Program-made: the position numbers and the translations under genes
Assembly: GCA_030430575.1 (NCBI GenBank)
Contig: JAUIKF010000005.1
Span: 1-64,000, forward strand
DNA from: Bacteroidia bacterium
GTDB taxonomy: Bacteria > Bacteroidota > Bacteroidia > J057
Length of the DNA: 64,000 nt
Reading direction: 5' to 3'
Shown here: positions 18,426 through 61,085 of the stretch, piece after piece
Position numbering within the stretch: position 1 is the first letter of the stretch
Layout of the letters: the number at the start of each line of letters is the position of its first letter
The notes under the pieces: model-generated
The model's database searches: none
What the model was told of the DNA's origin: nothing
Seen by the model: only the letters and a program-made list of their open reading frames with translations

Positions 18426-18705
18426 GACCGTTCGCTGGCGCTCACTGCGAGACCGCTCAGGCTCGAAGACTCGCCCTCACTGCGAGATCGTTCGGCTCGA
18501 GAACTCACCTCACTGCGAGACCGCTCAGGCTCGAAGACTCGCCTTCGCTGCGAGATAAGAGAAGTCTTTGTCTTTAAGTCTGGCAGCGAGTCTTCGAGCG
18601 GTCTCGCAGTGAGGAGCGAAGCGACGAACGGTCTCGGAGGGAGCCCAAAGGGCGACCGGTCTCACAGCGAGGGCTGAGTCTGCGAAGCCCGAGCGGTCTT
18701 CTTTC
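18426..18705. repeat. Core-and-ladder inverted repeat element, copy 1
   Basis: The left arm has three to four tandem units of about 33 bp built on GAGAYCG...GCTCGAAGACTCGCC..CACTGC. A core of about 30 bp (18554-18584, containing AAGAGAAGTCTTTGTCTTT) follows, and then inverted units (GCGAGTCTTCGAGCGGTCTCGCAGTGAG...). The same core with mostly C/T changes occurs in reverse orientation at 63649-63680. The element starts at the SDR stop. The remaining gap up to 18842 is AT-rich with no gene seen. Confidence 0.8.
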
Positions 18706-27230: not shown

Positions 27231-27360
27231 TAACAGCCTTGCTGTCATTTCGACGAGTCTTCGAGGAGAAATCTAACAGTGTGGTCTAGAAGCCTGGAAA
27301 TAACCAATCGAAAGGGCGTGTTAGATTTCTCCCGTTGGTCGAAATGACAACTGCGTTGTA
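27231..27360. repeat. MITE-like inverted repeat (TGTCATTTCGAC), copy 1
   Basis: Terminal inverted arms TGTCATTTCGAC... (27243-27278) and ...GTCGAAATGACA (27319-27349) enclose GGAGAAATCTAAC/TTAGATTTCTCC inner arms. Thirty-three bases (27241-27273) are identical to copy 2 at 34370-34402. There is no transposase gene inside. Together with AT-rich flanks it makes up the gap 27038-27439. Confidence 0.8.
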
Positions 27361-27619: not shown

Positions 27620-28909
27620 TTACCTCCTAATCCATCGTTCAACAACATTCCCCACCACCATCGCTACAAAAGGCACCATCGGAAAGTGAAAGCGGCTATA
27701 GCCAAAAAAGATGCTGTATATCACCAGGAAATAGGCACAGATCGCGAAGGGAAGGAATGGATAGATAAATAGCTTACGATACGTTGGGGAAATAGATAAT
27801 AGGAGGTGGAGGAAAAATAGGCTAAATATTCCCAAATACGCAGCCTGGGCCAGGCGATTGGCCCAGATCCAGTGCGACGCATCTGGAGTCTTTACTCCCA
27901 TCCTTGTCCAGTAGACGCCCTCACTGCCCCGTTCAAAGAGGTATTTCCACTTGAGAGGAATGCGCCCGATGGCTTCTAGCGGTTGTGCTAGCAGATAGTC
28001 TTTAGCCAGTTGCATGGCTGCTTGGTCACGCTGAGCCTCATCGAGACCAGCAGGGAGAAGGGCTTCTACCTCTCCTTCAAAGTGGTAAGTGCCTGTCGCA
28101 TGTGGATTGTTACCAATGAGCAGGTTGATGCCTCCGTTATTGGAAAAAGGAATGAGCTGACCCCAAATCTGGGTATTGCGGTATGCCCAAGGCGCAATGG
28201 CTAGAGTGATCACCACGTAAATTTTTAAAATGCCAAGCATTCGCCGCTTCAACAACTTTTTTTTGTTCATCAAAAAAAAGAAAGGAATGAACAGTACTTG
28301 CGCCTTCACAAAGCAGCACATCGCAAAGAAGGCGCCTTTGAGCCGATGACTGACCAAGGCGAGGAGTAGGAGGGAGGTGAACAGCGTTTCGGATAGCAAT
28401 AGGGGACAATAGGCAATATGATTTGGATAAAGGGCCATGATCAGCATGGCGAGCCTTGCCCCTTTTTCGGAATCAAACCACCTTTTGCTCAATACATATA
28501 CGCACCAGATACTGACAACAGAAAGCCCTATTTGCGTAAGCTGAACCCACAGGATTTTGCTTCCTAAAAGCCAGAAAATGACTCCCAAAAAAGCGGGATA
28601 TCCCACAGGCCATAAGGCCGTCGGCTGGCTGTCTATGCTATACCCCTCACCAGAGGCGATGGCTAGCCCTCTTTCCATATACCATCCGGCATCACTGACG
28701 GGCTGCCAGTCGACGATGAGGAGCCACAGAAGTCGGAGAATAAGGCCGAGGAGGAGGATGAATAAAGGAATGTAGCGACCGTATTCCGTACCGTTTTCCG
28801 TAGGGTCACGATATATCGTGACCCTACGGAAAACGGTCTCGTAATGATGAGCGAAGCGACGAACAATCTCGCAGCGAGCCTGAAAGGTGAGCGGTCTAAT
28901 TCCCTTCAT
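27620..28909 (-). CDS. GT39-like integral membrane glycosyltransferase
   Basis: A polytopic inner membrane protein, 429 residues at the longest start, of the ArnT/PMT type that moves sugars from a lipid carrier. Helices begin at YIPLFILLLGLILRLLWLLIV (about 47-67). The first periplasmic loop has the catalytic acidic residue in SDAGWYMERGLAIASGEGY. PVGYPAFLGVIFWLLGS and LLLSETLFTSLLLLAL follow, and about ten helices in all. The only ATG before the first helix is at 28909, overlapping the previous stop by 14 bases. Residues 2-45 are encoded by a palindrome and ladder repeat (see findings), so the natural N-terminus is uncertain. Confidence 0.82.
   Translation of the reverse strand: MKGIRPLTFQARCEIVRRFAHHYETVFRRVTIYRDPTENGTEYGRYIPLFILLLGLILRLLWLLIVDWQPVSDAGWYMERGLAIASGEGYSIDSQPTALWPVGYPAFLGVIFWLLGSKILWVQLTQIGLSVVSIWCVYVLSKRWFDSEKGARLAMLIMALYPNHIAYCPLLLSETLFTSLLLLALVSHRLKGAFFAMCCFVKAQVLFIPFFFLMNKKKLLKRRMLGILKIYVVITLAIAPWAYRNTQIWGQLIPFSNNGGINLLIGNNPHATGTYHFEGEVEALLPAGLDEAQRDQAAMQLAKDYLLAQPLEAIGRIPLKWKYLFERGSEGVYWTRMGVKTPDASHWIWANRLAQAAYLGIFSLFFLHLLLSISPTYRKLFIYPFLPFAICAYFLVIYSIFFGYSRFHFPMVPFVAMVVGNVVERWIRR
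28790..28837. repeat. Perfect 48-bp palindrome (GTAGGG core)
   Basis: Every base from 28790 to 28813 pairs with 28814-28837. The inner part is GTAGGGTCACGAT with its complement, and the outer part is ACCGTTTTCC. It lies inside the 5' coding end of the glycosyltransferase. Three related palindromes occur at 30071, 31575 and 61036. Confidence 0.95.
28838..28893. repeat. Half copy of the GAGACCG ladder element
   Basis: Words such as GAGCGAAGCGACGAAC, AATCTCGCAGCGAG and GAGCGGTCT match the right arm of the elements at 18426 and 63567, but no core or left arm is present. It joins the palindrome at 28790-28837 and is read through by the glycosyltransferase frame. Confidence 0.65.
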
Positions 28910-30070: not shown

Positions 30071-30132
30071 CTTTTTTTATTTAGGCCGTAGGGGCAGGAC
30101 ATGTCCTGCCCCTACGGCCTAAATAAAAAAAG
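30071..30132. repeat. Perfect 62-bp palindrome (GTAGGGGCAGGACA core)
   Basis: The 31-base arms 30071-30101 and 30102-30132 are exact complements, with no loop. The outer ends are T7/A7 runs, so a transcript in either direction would have a terminator-like hairpin and U run. The central GGACATGTCC is shared with the palindrome at 61036-61085. Confidence 0.97.
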
Positions 30133-31574: not shown

Positions 31575-31602
31575 GTAGAGACGCGATTAATCGCGTCTCT
31601 AC
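31575..31602. repeat. Perfect 28-bp palindrome at the valS stop
   Basis: Arms 31575-31588 and 31589-31602 (GTAGAGACGCGATT and its complement) are exact. The palindrome overlaps the last bases of valS, including the TAG stop. It may fold as the 3' end of that transcript. Confidence 0.95.
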
Positions 31603-34226
31603 CCCAATTGTGCGAGGCTCTCGCGTAATACAACAAGCGTCGCTTCGGCATCTGCCTTTTTCTTGCGCTCTTTAGCCACTACTTGTTCGGGGGCATTATT
31701 GACAAATCGCTCATTGGCCAGCTTTTTCTCCACTTTTACCAAAAAGCCTTCAGTATACTCGATTTCTTTTTCGATTTTCTCGCGTTCTGCTTCGACATCA
31801 ATAGCACCTTGCGGAATATAAAACTCGTGGGCCTGTACCCTAATACTCGCCGTCCCATCTACTTGGTCTGCTACAAACTCAATGCTTGAAGTATTGAGGA
31901 ACTTGGTTAATAAATCACGATAACGATCAAATAAGGACGTATTGCCTGTTTTGATGAAAAGCTCAATCGTCTCTTTAGGGGACATTTGCTTATCCATGCG
32001 GAATTTGCGGACAGCACTCACTACTTCATTGATGAGCTCCATCTCTTGCAGGATAGGTCCGTCTTGACCGGTAGGGGCAGGCATGGAAGTGATACAAATG
32101 AACTCCCCGTCTTTACGTTCTTCCATAGATTGCCAAATCTCCTCTGTCAAGAATGGCATAAACGGATGAAGCATTTTCATCAAGGTATTGAAGCACTCCA
32201 TGACGCCTTTTAAGGTTTCAGAAGCAATCGGCTGCCCGTAAGGGGGCTTCACTAATTCCAGGTACCAGGAACAGAAATCATCCCAAATGAGCTTGTACAT
32301 GCTCATGAGCGCATCTGAGATGCGGAATTTCTCAAAATGGTCTTCAATCTCTTGGCTCACGGTGGAAATCCTGGCTTCCATCCACGCTTGAGCAATCTGA
32401 TCAAGATCAGACATGTCGCCCTCTACGACTTCCCACCCTTTCACGAGGCGGAAAGCGTTCCATATTTTGTTAGCAAAATTGCGCCCTTGTTCCACAAGGC
32501 CTTCATCAAATAGCAGGTCATTACCCGCGGGCGAACTAAATAGCATCCCTACGCGAACGCCATCAGCCCCATATTGCTCGATCAAGTCTAGCGGATCTGG
32601 AGAATTACCAAGAGACTTGGACATCTTACGACGCTTTTTATCACGGACAATCCCAGTCAGGTAAACATTATTGAAGGGACGCCCATCCTTGTATTCGAAA
32701 CCAGCGATGATCATGCGCGCTACCCAGAAAAAGAGGATTTCGGGAGCCGTTACGAGGTCATTGGTGGGGTAATAGTACTGAATGTCTTTATTGTCTGGCT
32801 CCATGATGCCATCAAAGACAGAGATAGGCCATAGCCAACTAGAGGCCCAGGTGTCGAGGACATCCTCGTCTTGACGAAGATCAGCCATTGTCAGGGAATC
32901 ATCGGCAGTCTTTGCTTTCGCACGTTCCAAAGCAGCTTCCGCACTTTCTGCTACCACATAGTCATTGCCGCCCTTGATGTAGTAGGCGGGAATCTGGTGG
33001 CCCCACCATAACTGGCGTGAGAGGCACCAGTCACGGACATTCTCCATCCAGTGGCGGTAGGTATTGACAAATTTGGGGGGAATAAGCTTGACTTCCTCGC
33101 TGAGCACCGCTTCCAAAGCAGGTTTGGAGAGGTCCTCCATTTTCAAGAACCACTGAAGGGATAGGCGAGGCTCGATGACTGCATTGGTACGTTCTGAATG
33201 GCCAACGGAATGGTTATAGTCTTCGAGTTTTACGATATGGCCCTGTTCCTCCAAATCACGCATGATCAGTTTGCGTGCTTTGAAGCGATCTTCGCCGATA
33301 TATAAGCCCGCAGCTTCGCTCATCGTACCGTCTGGATTCAAGACGTCGATGGTTTCCAGGTTATGGCGCAAGCCTATTTCATAGTCATTGATGTCATGGG
33401 CAGGGGTGACTTTCAGGCAGCCTGTCCCAAACTCCATGTCGAGGTAGTCATCCTGGATGATAGGGATAGCTCGGCCGAGTAGCGGTACCAACGCTTTTTT
33501 TCCATGCAAATGCTTATACCGCTCATCATCTGGGTGTACAGCAATAGCTGTATCACCCAAAATCGTCTCAGGACGCGTAGTCGCAATCGTAATATACTGA
33601 TCACTTTCCCCTTCTATCGCATACCGCACAAAGTGCAATTTGCCCTGAATATCTTTGAAAATTACCTCTTCGTCGGAAACGGCTGTCTGCGCACTGGGGT
33701 CCCAATTTACCATGCGGATACCGCGATAGATATGGCCCTTGTCGTGCAGGTCGCAGAATACGCGGATGACCTCTTTGTAGTAGTTCTCATCCATGGTGAA
33801 GCGCGTACGCGACCAATCACAGCTCGCGCCAAGCTTTTTGAGCTGCTGGAGGATGATGCCACCATATTTCTCCTTCCATTCAAAGGCATGCTTCAAGAAA
33901 TCTTCACGCGAGAGGTCACGCTTCTGTATCCCCTGGTCAGCCAGCATTTTCACCACTTTTGCCTCGGTTGCAATAGATGCATGGTCGGTTCCAGGCACCC
34001 AGCAGGCGTTAAACCCCTGCATGCGCTTGCGGCGGATGAGGACGTCCTGAAGGGTATTGTTGAGCATGTGGCCCATGTGCAATACGCCCGTCACATTGGG
34101 GGGCGGGATGACAATCGTATAGGGCGGACGGTCATCTGGAACAGACTTGAACAGGTCATGAGCAATCCACTGCTCATACCACTTGTCTTCAATCGCAGTG
34201 GGGGTGTATTTCTTCGATAACTCCAT
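31599..34226 (-). CDS. valS: Valyl-tRNA synthetase
   Basis: Charges tRNA-Val in the cytoplasm. It has 875 residues, normal for class I ValRS. PPPNVTGVLHMGHMLNNT carries the HIGH motif (HMGH) near residue 50. The editing (CP1) domain lies about 170-400, with TTRPETILGDTAIAVHP. RKMSKSLGNSPDPLDLI holds KMSKS near residue 538. The anticodon-binding helical domain and the C-terminal coiled coil (about 810-875, KKLANERFVNNAPEQVVAKERKK) are complete. The last codons overlap a perfect palindrome. Confidence 0.98.
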   Translation of the reverse strand: MELSKKYTPTAIEDKWYEQWIAHDLFKSVPDDRPPYTIVIPPPNVTGVLHMGHMLNNTLQDVLIRRKRMQGFNACWVPGTDHASIATEAKVVKMLADQGIQKRDLSREDFLKHAFEWKEKYGGIILQQLKKLGASCDWSRTRFTMDENYYKEVIRVFCDLHDKGHIYRGIRMVNWDPSAQTAVSDEEVIFKDIQGKLHFVRYAIEGESDQYITIATTRPETILGDTAIAVHPDDERYKHLHGKKALVPLLGRAIPIIQDDYLDMEFGTGCLKVTPAHDINDYEIGLRHNLETIDVLNPDGTMSEAAGLYIGEDRFKARKLIMRDLEEQGHIVKLEDYNHSVGHSERTNAVIEPRLSLQWFLKMEDLSKPALEAVLSEEVKLIPPKFVNTYRHWMENVRDWCLSRQLWWGHQIPAYYIKGGNDYVVAESAEAALERAKAKTADDSLTMADLRQDEDVLDTWASSWLWPISVFDGIMEPDNKDIQYYYPTNDLVTAPEILFFWVARMIIAGFEYKDGRPFNNVYLTGIVRDKKRRKMSKSLGNSPDPLDLIEQYGADGVRVGMLFSSPAGNDLLFDEGLVEQGRNFANKIWNAFRLVKGWEVVEGDMSDLDQIAQAWMEARISTVSQEIEDHFEKFRISDALMSMYKLIWDDFCSWYLELVKPPYGQPIASETLKGVMECFNTLMKMLHPFMPFLTEEIWQSMEERKDGEFICITSMPAPTGQDGPILQEMELINEVVSAVRKFRMDKQMSPKETIELFIKTGNTSLFDRYRDLLTKFLNTSSIEFVADQVDGTASIRVQAHEFYIPQGAIDVEAEREKIEKEIEYTEGFLVKVEKKLANERFVNNAPEQVVAKERKKKADAEATLVVLRESLAQLG

Positions 34227-34542: not shown

Positions 34543-34615
34543 CACTCAAGCTCAAATTCAAGTTCAACCTCAAACGTTCTTCCTTGAACTTGAACTTGAA
34601 CTTGAACTTGAATTT
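34543..34615. repeat. TTCAAR ladder with inverted mate (hairpin)
   Basis: Five YTCAAR hexamers on the left (ACTCAA-GCTCAA-ATTCAA-GTTCAA-CCTCAA) face five TTGAAY hexamers on the right (TTGAAC four times, then TTGAAT) across a spacer of about 10 bases. The repeat abuts MITE copy 2. The rest of the gap to 34742 holds one terminator-like hairpin. Confidence 0.75.
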
Positions 34616-61035: not shown

Positions 61036-61085
61036 CGGAAAACCTTGTAGGGACAGGACATGTCCTGTCCCTACAAGGTTTTCCG
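61036..61085. repeat. Perfect 50-bp palindrome (GTAGGGACAGGACA core)
   Basis: Arms 61036-61060 and 61061-61085 are exact complements. The central GGACATGTCC and the GTAGGG/CCCTAC words match the palindrome at 30071-30132, but the outer arms (CGGAAAACCTT) differ. It sits 66 bases before the ABC operon. Confidence 0.97.

Follow-up and report, generated by a model that had tools for sequence, protein, structure and literature searches.

Copy-specific outer arms around double-foot REP palindromes of a Bacteroidia bacterium suggest backward copying of neighbouring DNA when the hairpin lands

Results

The window, i.e., the whole analysed stretch of 64,000 nucleotides from contig JAUIKF010000005.1 of a Bacteroidia bacterium, carries four loopless perfect palindromes, built on one A-type, two B-type and one C-type core and annotated without strand. 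The first (28790..28837, 48 bp, 24-bp arms), read from the window sequence, consists of the A-type core GTAGGGTCACGATATATCGTGACCCTAC (28800-28827) flanked by 10-bp outer arms ACCGTTTTCC/GGAAAACGGT; it lies within the predicted N-terminal part of the minus-strand ORF 27620-28909 and is not clearly intergenic. Its right arm continues into a dispersed mosaic repeat (28834..28900, no strand assigned; CGGTCTCGyAGTGAGGAGCGAAGCGACGAAC...), of which palindrome-free copies exist elsewhere. The second palindrome is intergenic (30071..30132, 62 bp, 31-bp arms) and holds the B-type core GTAGGGGCAGGACATGTCCTGCCCCTAC (30088-30115) between 17-bp outer arms CTTTTTTTATTTAGGCC/GGCCTAAATAAAAAAAG. The third is a bare 28-bp C-type core, GTAGAGACGCGATTAATCGCGTCTCTAC (31575..31602, 14-bp arms), which is missing from the corresponding place in the sister species G001; its GTAG (31599-31602) supplies the TAG stop codon of the minus-strand ORF 31599-34226. 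The fourth (61036..61085, 50 bp, 25-bp arms) is again built on a B-type core, GTAGGGACAGGACATGTCCTGTCCCTAC (61047-61074), bordered by 11-bp outer arms CGGAAAACCTT/AAGGTTTTCCG, and is embedded in a degenerate copy of a larger dispersed hairpin repeat.

The original prediction had placed and centred these four palindromes correctly, and all are exact and far above chance: in 20 mononucleotide shuffles of the window the longest palindrome arm was 9 bp, as compared to 14-31 bp in the real ones. It had also given all four outer arms that are unrelated to one another. Such arms are present at 28790, 30071 and 61036 and absent at 31575, and the arms are not all unique, since a variant core at G000:C22 is also flanked by ACCGTTTTCC and the larger repeat includes the arms at 61036. 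An Rfam search of the window gave no match. Further repeats were observed in the window: a mosaic repeat of the GCGGTCTCGCAGTGAGGAGCGAAGCGACGAACGATCTCGCAGGGAGC type at 18520-18700, which has many occurrences in the stretches read and within or next to which several A-type palindromes lie, a 32-bp dispersed repeat at 27243-27274 with dozens of identical or near-identical places in G001, and a short sequence at 34583-34612 with several occurrences in G005 and G001.

Genome-wide collection of the GTAGRG palindromes with the pattern GTAGRGNC-N12-14-GNCYCTAC returned 138 matches in the 8.16-Mb genome and none for the reversed control pattern. The pattern was also found in 24 of 60 relatives, where the centres are very different and mostly still palindromic. 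Core types were assigned for 107 copies read with their flanks; base-level reading covered roughly 1 Mb of the genome in stretches picked around known copies, with gene positions taken from mechanical ORFs. Type A (ACGATATATCGT, with the variant A' ACGACATGTCGT) accounts for 34 copies, type B (CAGGACATGTCCTG) for 25, type D (CGTTG...CAACG) for 28, type C (CGCGATTAATCGCG-like) for 10 and other types for the last 10. Pairing is perfect in 81 of the 107 cores. The seventh core base may be A, G, T or C and its partner usually co-varies; B and A' are one symmetric change apart. GTAG pairs with CTAC in the cores, so they lack the unpaired GTAG at one end only that defines classical one-footed REPs/BIMEs. 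Searching GTDB with the B core gave matches in two MAGs only, one of Saprospiraceae and one of Chlorobi, and no close strain was among them; on this basis the genome is probably a member or a neighbour of Saprospiraceae.

The cores lie mostly 3' of genes, as is known for REPs: 31 copies are in convergent, 43 in tandem and 6 in divergent context, and 23 are inside predicted ORFs. In 61 of 74 intergenic copies that adjoin a gene end, no more than 60 bp separate the core from the stop codon (median 16 bp), and in 12 intergenic copies GTAG provides the TAG stop codon itself (distance -4). Both this proximity and the orientation counts would be expected if selection for RNA hairpins 3' of genes kept the pairing. 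Such selection by itself would not yield copy-specific perfect DNA palindromes, however, nor does it fit the copies within predicted ORFs or the lack of correlation between arm length and distance to the stop codon, and we regard it as a very improbable explanation. Arms ending exactly at stop codons were considered as well and found unsupported (no correlation, permutation p 0.048). As a separate observation, D-type palindromes occur in frame within T9SS type A C-terminal sorting domains (L063:3049-3099, L170, L171, L189, L202, L206 and L209), where they encode VETLDSNVST-like peptides placed in a turn; the single such domain tested scored above the TIGR04183 cut-off.

A subgroup of Y1 genes was first noticed adjoining palindromes in three genomes (G048, G055 and G037), and an alignment seeded from these palindrome-linked genes was used for searching. 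This genome has three members of the RAYT subgroup, each with a different core type in frame: the gene on C66 contains an A' palindrome, encoding VGSRHVVTL, and has one further A' palindrome on each side, the gene on C55 contains a D palindrome and that on C31 a C palindrome. No B core was found inside a RAYT gene; the B core may be linked to the C66 transposase, given the single symmetric base change that separates it from A'. Palindromes also interrupt the RAYT frames of G048, G009, G023 and G036 and adjoin the RAYT of G001. The arrangement described for tnpA_REP genes with double-foot REPs, with copies of the same REP beside the gene or in its frame, is thus present, and so is the Y1 REP-associated transposase gene that the original prediction had proposed to look for.

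The three proteins carry the motifs NHMH, NHVH and DHIH, WQ, and YIVNNP, YIRNNP and YIANNP. Compared with the signature of subclass 2.4 (NH[IFV]H, WQ, YIxNNP and a variable insert between HuH and Y) they agree, the HuH motif matching exactly in one of three and loosely in two of three, as judged from the motifs. Against NF047646, the equivalog model for REP-associated tyrosine transposases, they reached 58, 59 and 45 bits and stayed below the cut-off of 80 bits. A gene on C73, separate from the cognate genes, reached 98 bits, and no palindrome with arms of at least 9 bp was found in the 3.2 kb examined around it. Another Y1 gene (L017:134-792, i.e., G000:C77:134-792) matches the IS200 transposase above cut-off (NF033573) and lies between perfect palindromes TATTGCGACGGGTTTAAACCCGTCGCAATA that resemble the CGTC superfamily, whose repeats apparently have no dedicated transposase of their own (PMC3733652).

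Across the 60 genomes, the RAYT subgroup was present in 12 of 12 genomes with at least four palindromes and in 14 of the 48 others (Fisher 7e-6), and at a threshold of at least two copies with the three seed genomes excluded the association was 2e-5; both p-values are generous because the genomes are related. The possibility that the palindromes track Y1 transposases at large was rejected, as PF01797 in general had no significant association with the palindromes in the same 60 genomes and it is the RAYT subgroup that tracks them.

Discussion

With cognate RAYT genes in this genome that are flanked or interrupted by the palindromes, and with the co-occurrence of both in relatives, the REP-transposase half of the original prediction is well supported. 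By their sequence features the palindromes are assigned to the double-foot REPs of TnpA_REP subclass 2.4 (RAYT group 4), a known kind, since this subclass was described with double-foot REPs and with in-frame REP insertions inside the transposase gene and, in the available text of the same source, as abundant in Cyanobacteria and Bacteroidetes (PMC6006769). The likeness comprises the 5' GTAG and 3' CTAC, the long stem, the flanking and in-frame insertions at tnpA_REP and the occurrence in Bacteroidetes. The palindromes analyzed here differ by their copy-specific perfect outer arms, which the available text of that source does not mention. GTAG families were otherwise listed in Proteobacteria, Cyanobacteria, Chloroflexi and the PVC group and not in Bacteroidetes (PMC3733652). 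REPINs and BIMEs of Pseudomonas and E. coli are likewise RAYT-linked palindromic units with compensatory changes, but each consists of two one-footed REPs and a spacer (PMC3116915), whereas single loopless palindromes are present here. We infer from the family that the RAYT would mobilise these REPs.

The core family is already known; the outer arms are the new aspect, and in the parts of the double-foot REP literature available to us no explanation for this layer was found. Outer arms that pair perfectly over at least 5 bp flank 31 of 34 A copies, all 25 B copies, 17 of 28 D copies and 1 of 10 C copies, the difference between A plus B (56 of 59 copies) and C being significant (Fisher 4e-8). 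In the A and B copies the arms are 5-19 bp long, often copy-specific, and end abruptly, with pairing just past the arm end at 25%, the chance level. Many arms are unique to their site and others are grouped in shared lineages. When 21 A copies whose arms are related were compared with one another, a difference affected both arms in 666 instances and a single arm in 107, and pairing held at 96.7% of arm positions as compared to 67% when right arms were re-dealt among the copies. The claim that both halves are kept identical did not hold, as C-type and other degenerate copies, the C type foremost, pair at only 11-13 of 14 core positions and some of their outer arms have decayed. Since older copies are imperfect, the arms seem to be born perfect and not maintained, and continuous correction seems not to be needed.

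Symmetric changes in the A arms could also be explained by template switching of the host (quasi-palindrome correction), which would perfect or lengthen any palindrome independently of a transposase. This process is able to create and maintain perfect stems (PMC8794818), and the AACAGATT and AGACCTCGGAGG hairpin families of this genome also vary symmetrically. Like the arms described here, its products are perfect reverse-complement arms from one event; the difference is that it has no tie to a mobile core or transposase. It should lengthen C-type cores too, yet these are mostly armless here and in G004, even where the core is perfect, and host template switching therefore appears rather improbable to us as the source of the arms. 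Symmetric outer-stem changes were seen in more hairpin families (L043, L045, L054, L057, L059, L078 and others), of the types ...AACAGATT..., AGACCTCGGAGG... and GTTACTTTTTT....

Individual sites bear on the origin of the arms. A dispersed repeat of ~200 bp exists both with and without a core, and its empty (L054) and filled (L081) copies have flanks that are 98-100% identical; in L081 the loop TTCGCAAAGCCTC is exchanged for ATT-core-AAT while the outer stem keeps its original bulge. This pair shows that the core has taken the place of the loop of a small hairpin. At paralogous gene ends on C9, cores of differing types are independently placed between stop codon and terminator, and in one of them (L046:10208) the A-run of the terminator stem now reads TTTTT, the inverse of the opposite arm. 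The left arm GGGTCAAACC at the C66 RAYT is composed of GGGTC, common to a native 12-mer repeat, and AAACC, the inverse of GGTTT, and the right arm CGGTTTGACCC recurs core-free in the next tandem unit; post-insertion duplication of the tandem unit could be an alternative for this pattern. At 30071, G001 has an equivalent of the right A-run and of the hairpin that follows it, and none of the left T-run.

Two sites count against simple copying of a flank at every site. At L079 the core is centred exactly within another GTAGGG palindrome. At L080 the stop codon comes from the gene-side arm and precedes that of G001 by two codons, for which reason this arm, or the whole unit, is new. G001 shares about 69% identity in aligned DNA, and in the 1.2 Mb of it that were compared flanking-gene orthologues were found and no clean empty site, i.e., no direct empty/filled allele pair, for an arm-bearing copy. 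Whether an arm is native or copied appears settled for a minority of copies. A hairpin at L059:13439-13486 has an 18-bp copy-specific stem and the loop GAGGCTTTGCGAA, as in empty copies of the larger repeat; because of this shared loop, REPs may not be the only elements whose arms turn over around a fixed tip.

The site L079 and the loop replacements fit equally well with the main rival explanation, namely that each core enters a cruciform or hairpin already in place, at its tip, and that the outer arms represent the former target palindrome. GTAG and CGTC repeats were found inside palindromes in three organisms (Di Nocera et al., 2013, PMC3733652), and the GTAG-15 repeats of A. variabilis and GTAG-23 of T. 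roseum resemble those described here in that a REP lies inside a longer palindrome. Their outer palindrome is a shared consensus and was called a target, whereas here it is often site-specific, and unoccupied target palindromes were absent in two of the three cases reported. In this genome unoccupied loopless palindromes are rare: the stretches read, picked around known copies, contain 33 loopless palindromes with arms of at least 11 bp, of which 29 carry a GTAG core, two are truncated cores, one belongs to the CGTC family and one is of another kind. Moreover, the copy-specific arms are AT-rich (30% GC) and unlike terminators or the abundant hairpin families. Insertion at hairpin tips is hence unlikely to account for the arms in general, and could contribute alongside flank copying.

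The best explanation, which we favour with some reservation, is that the palindromes are double-foot REPs of a single-strand-specific Y1 HUH transposase combined with self-primed copying of the target flank. According to the available text of PMC8266576, the mechanisms of REP dissemination are poorly understood, TnpA_REP cuts single-stranded REPs to yield a 5' phosphotyrosine and a free 3'-OH, and this 3'-OH can prime synthesis or attack the link. Following this, we propose that the transposase would link a single-stranded REP hairpin through its 5' GTAG end to a 3'-OH of the target, so that the 3' end of the hairpin (...CTAC), paired opposite GTAG at the foot, would face the target flank as template and could prime copying of about 5-19 nt of it. 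The extended end would then rejoin, often at short homology, and the product would be a core with an inverted copy of one flank, i.e., with perfect copy-specific outer arms. In a target that itself forms a small hairpin, the loop would be lost when the extended end rejoins at the matching stem, and after insertion the element would decay.

The outer palindrome around most copies suggests that neighbouring DNA was copied backwards when the hairpin landed, and the fold-back copying of the original prediction, whose interpretation is partly supported overall, is a plausible and leading reading of the outer arms. That this insertion, by self-primed extension of the hairpin 3' end, leaves an inverted flank copy in place of a target-site duplication, and so represents a new transposition scar, is put forward tentatively. 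If the outer arms are insertion scars, every copy would record the joining and copying of its hairpin, the A and B as opposed to the C copies of one genome would offer a natural comparison of transposases, and the earlier REPs found in palindromes without an empty counterpart would be accounted for.
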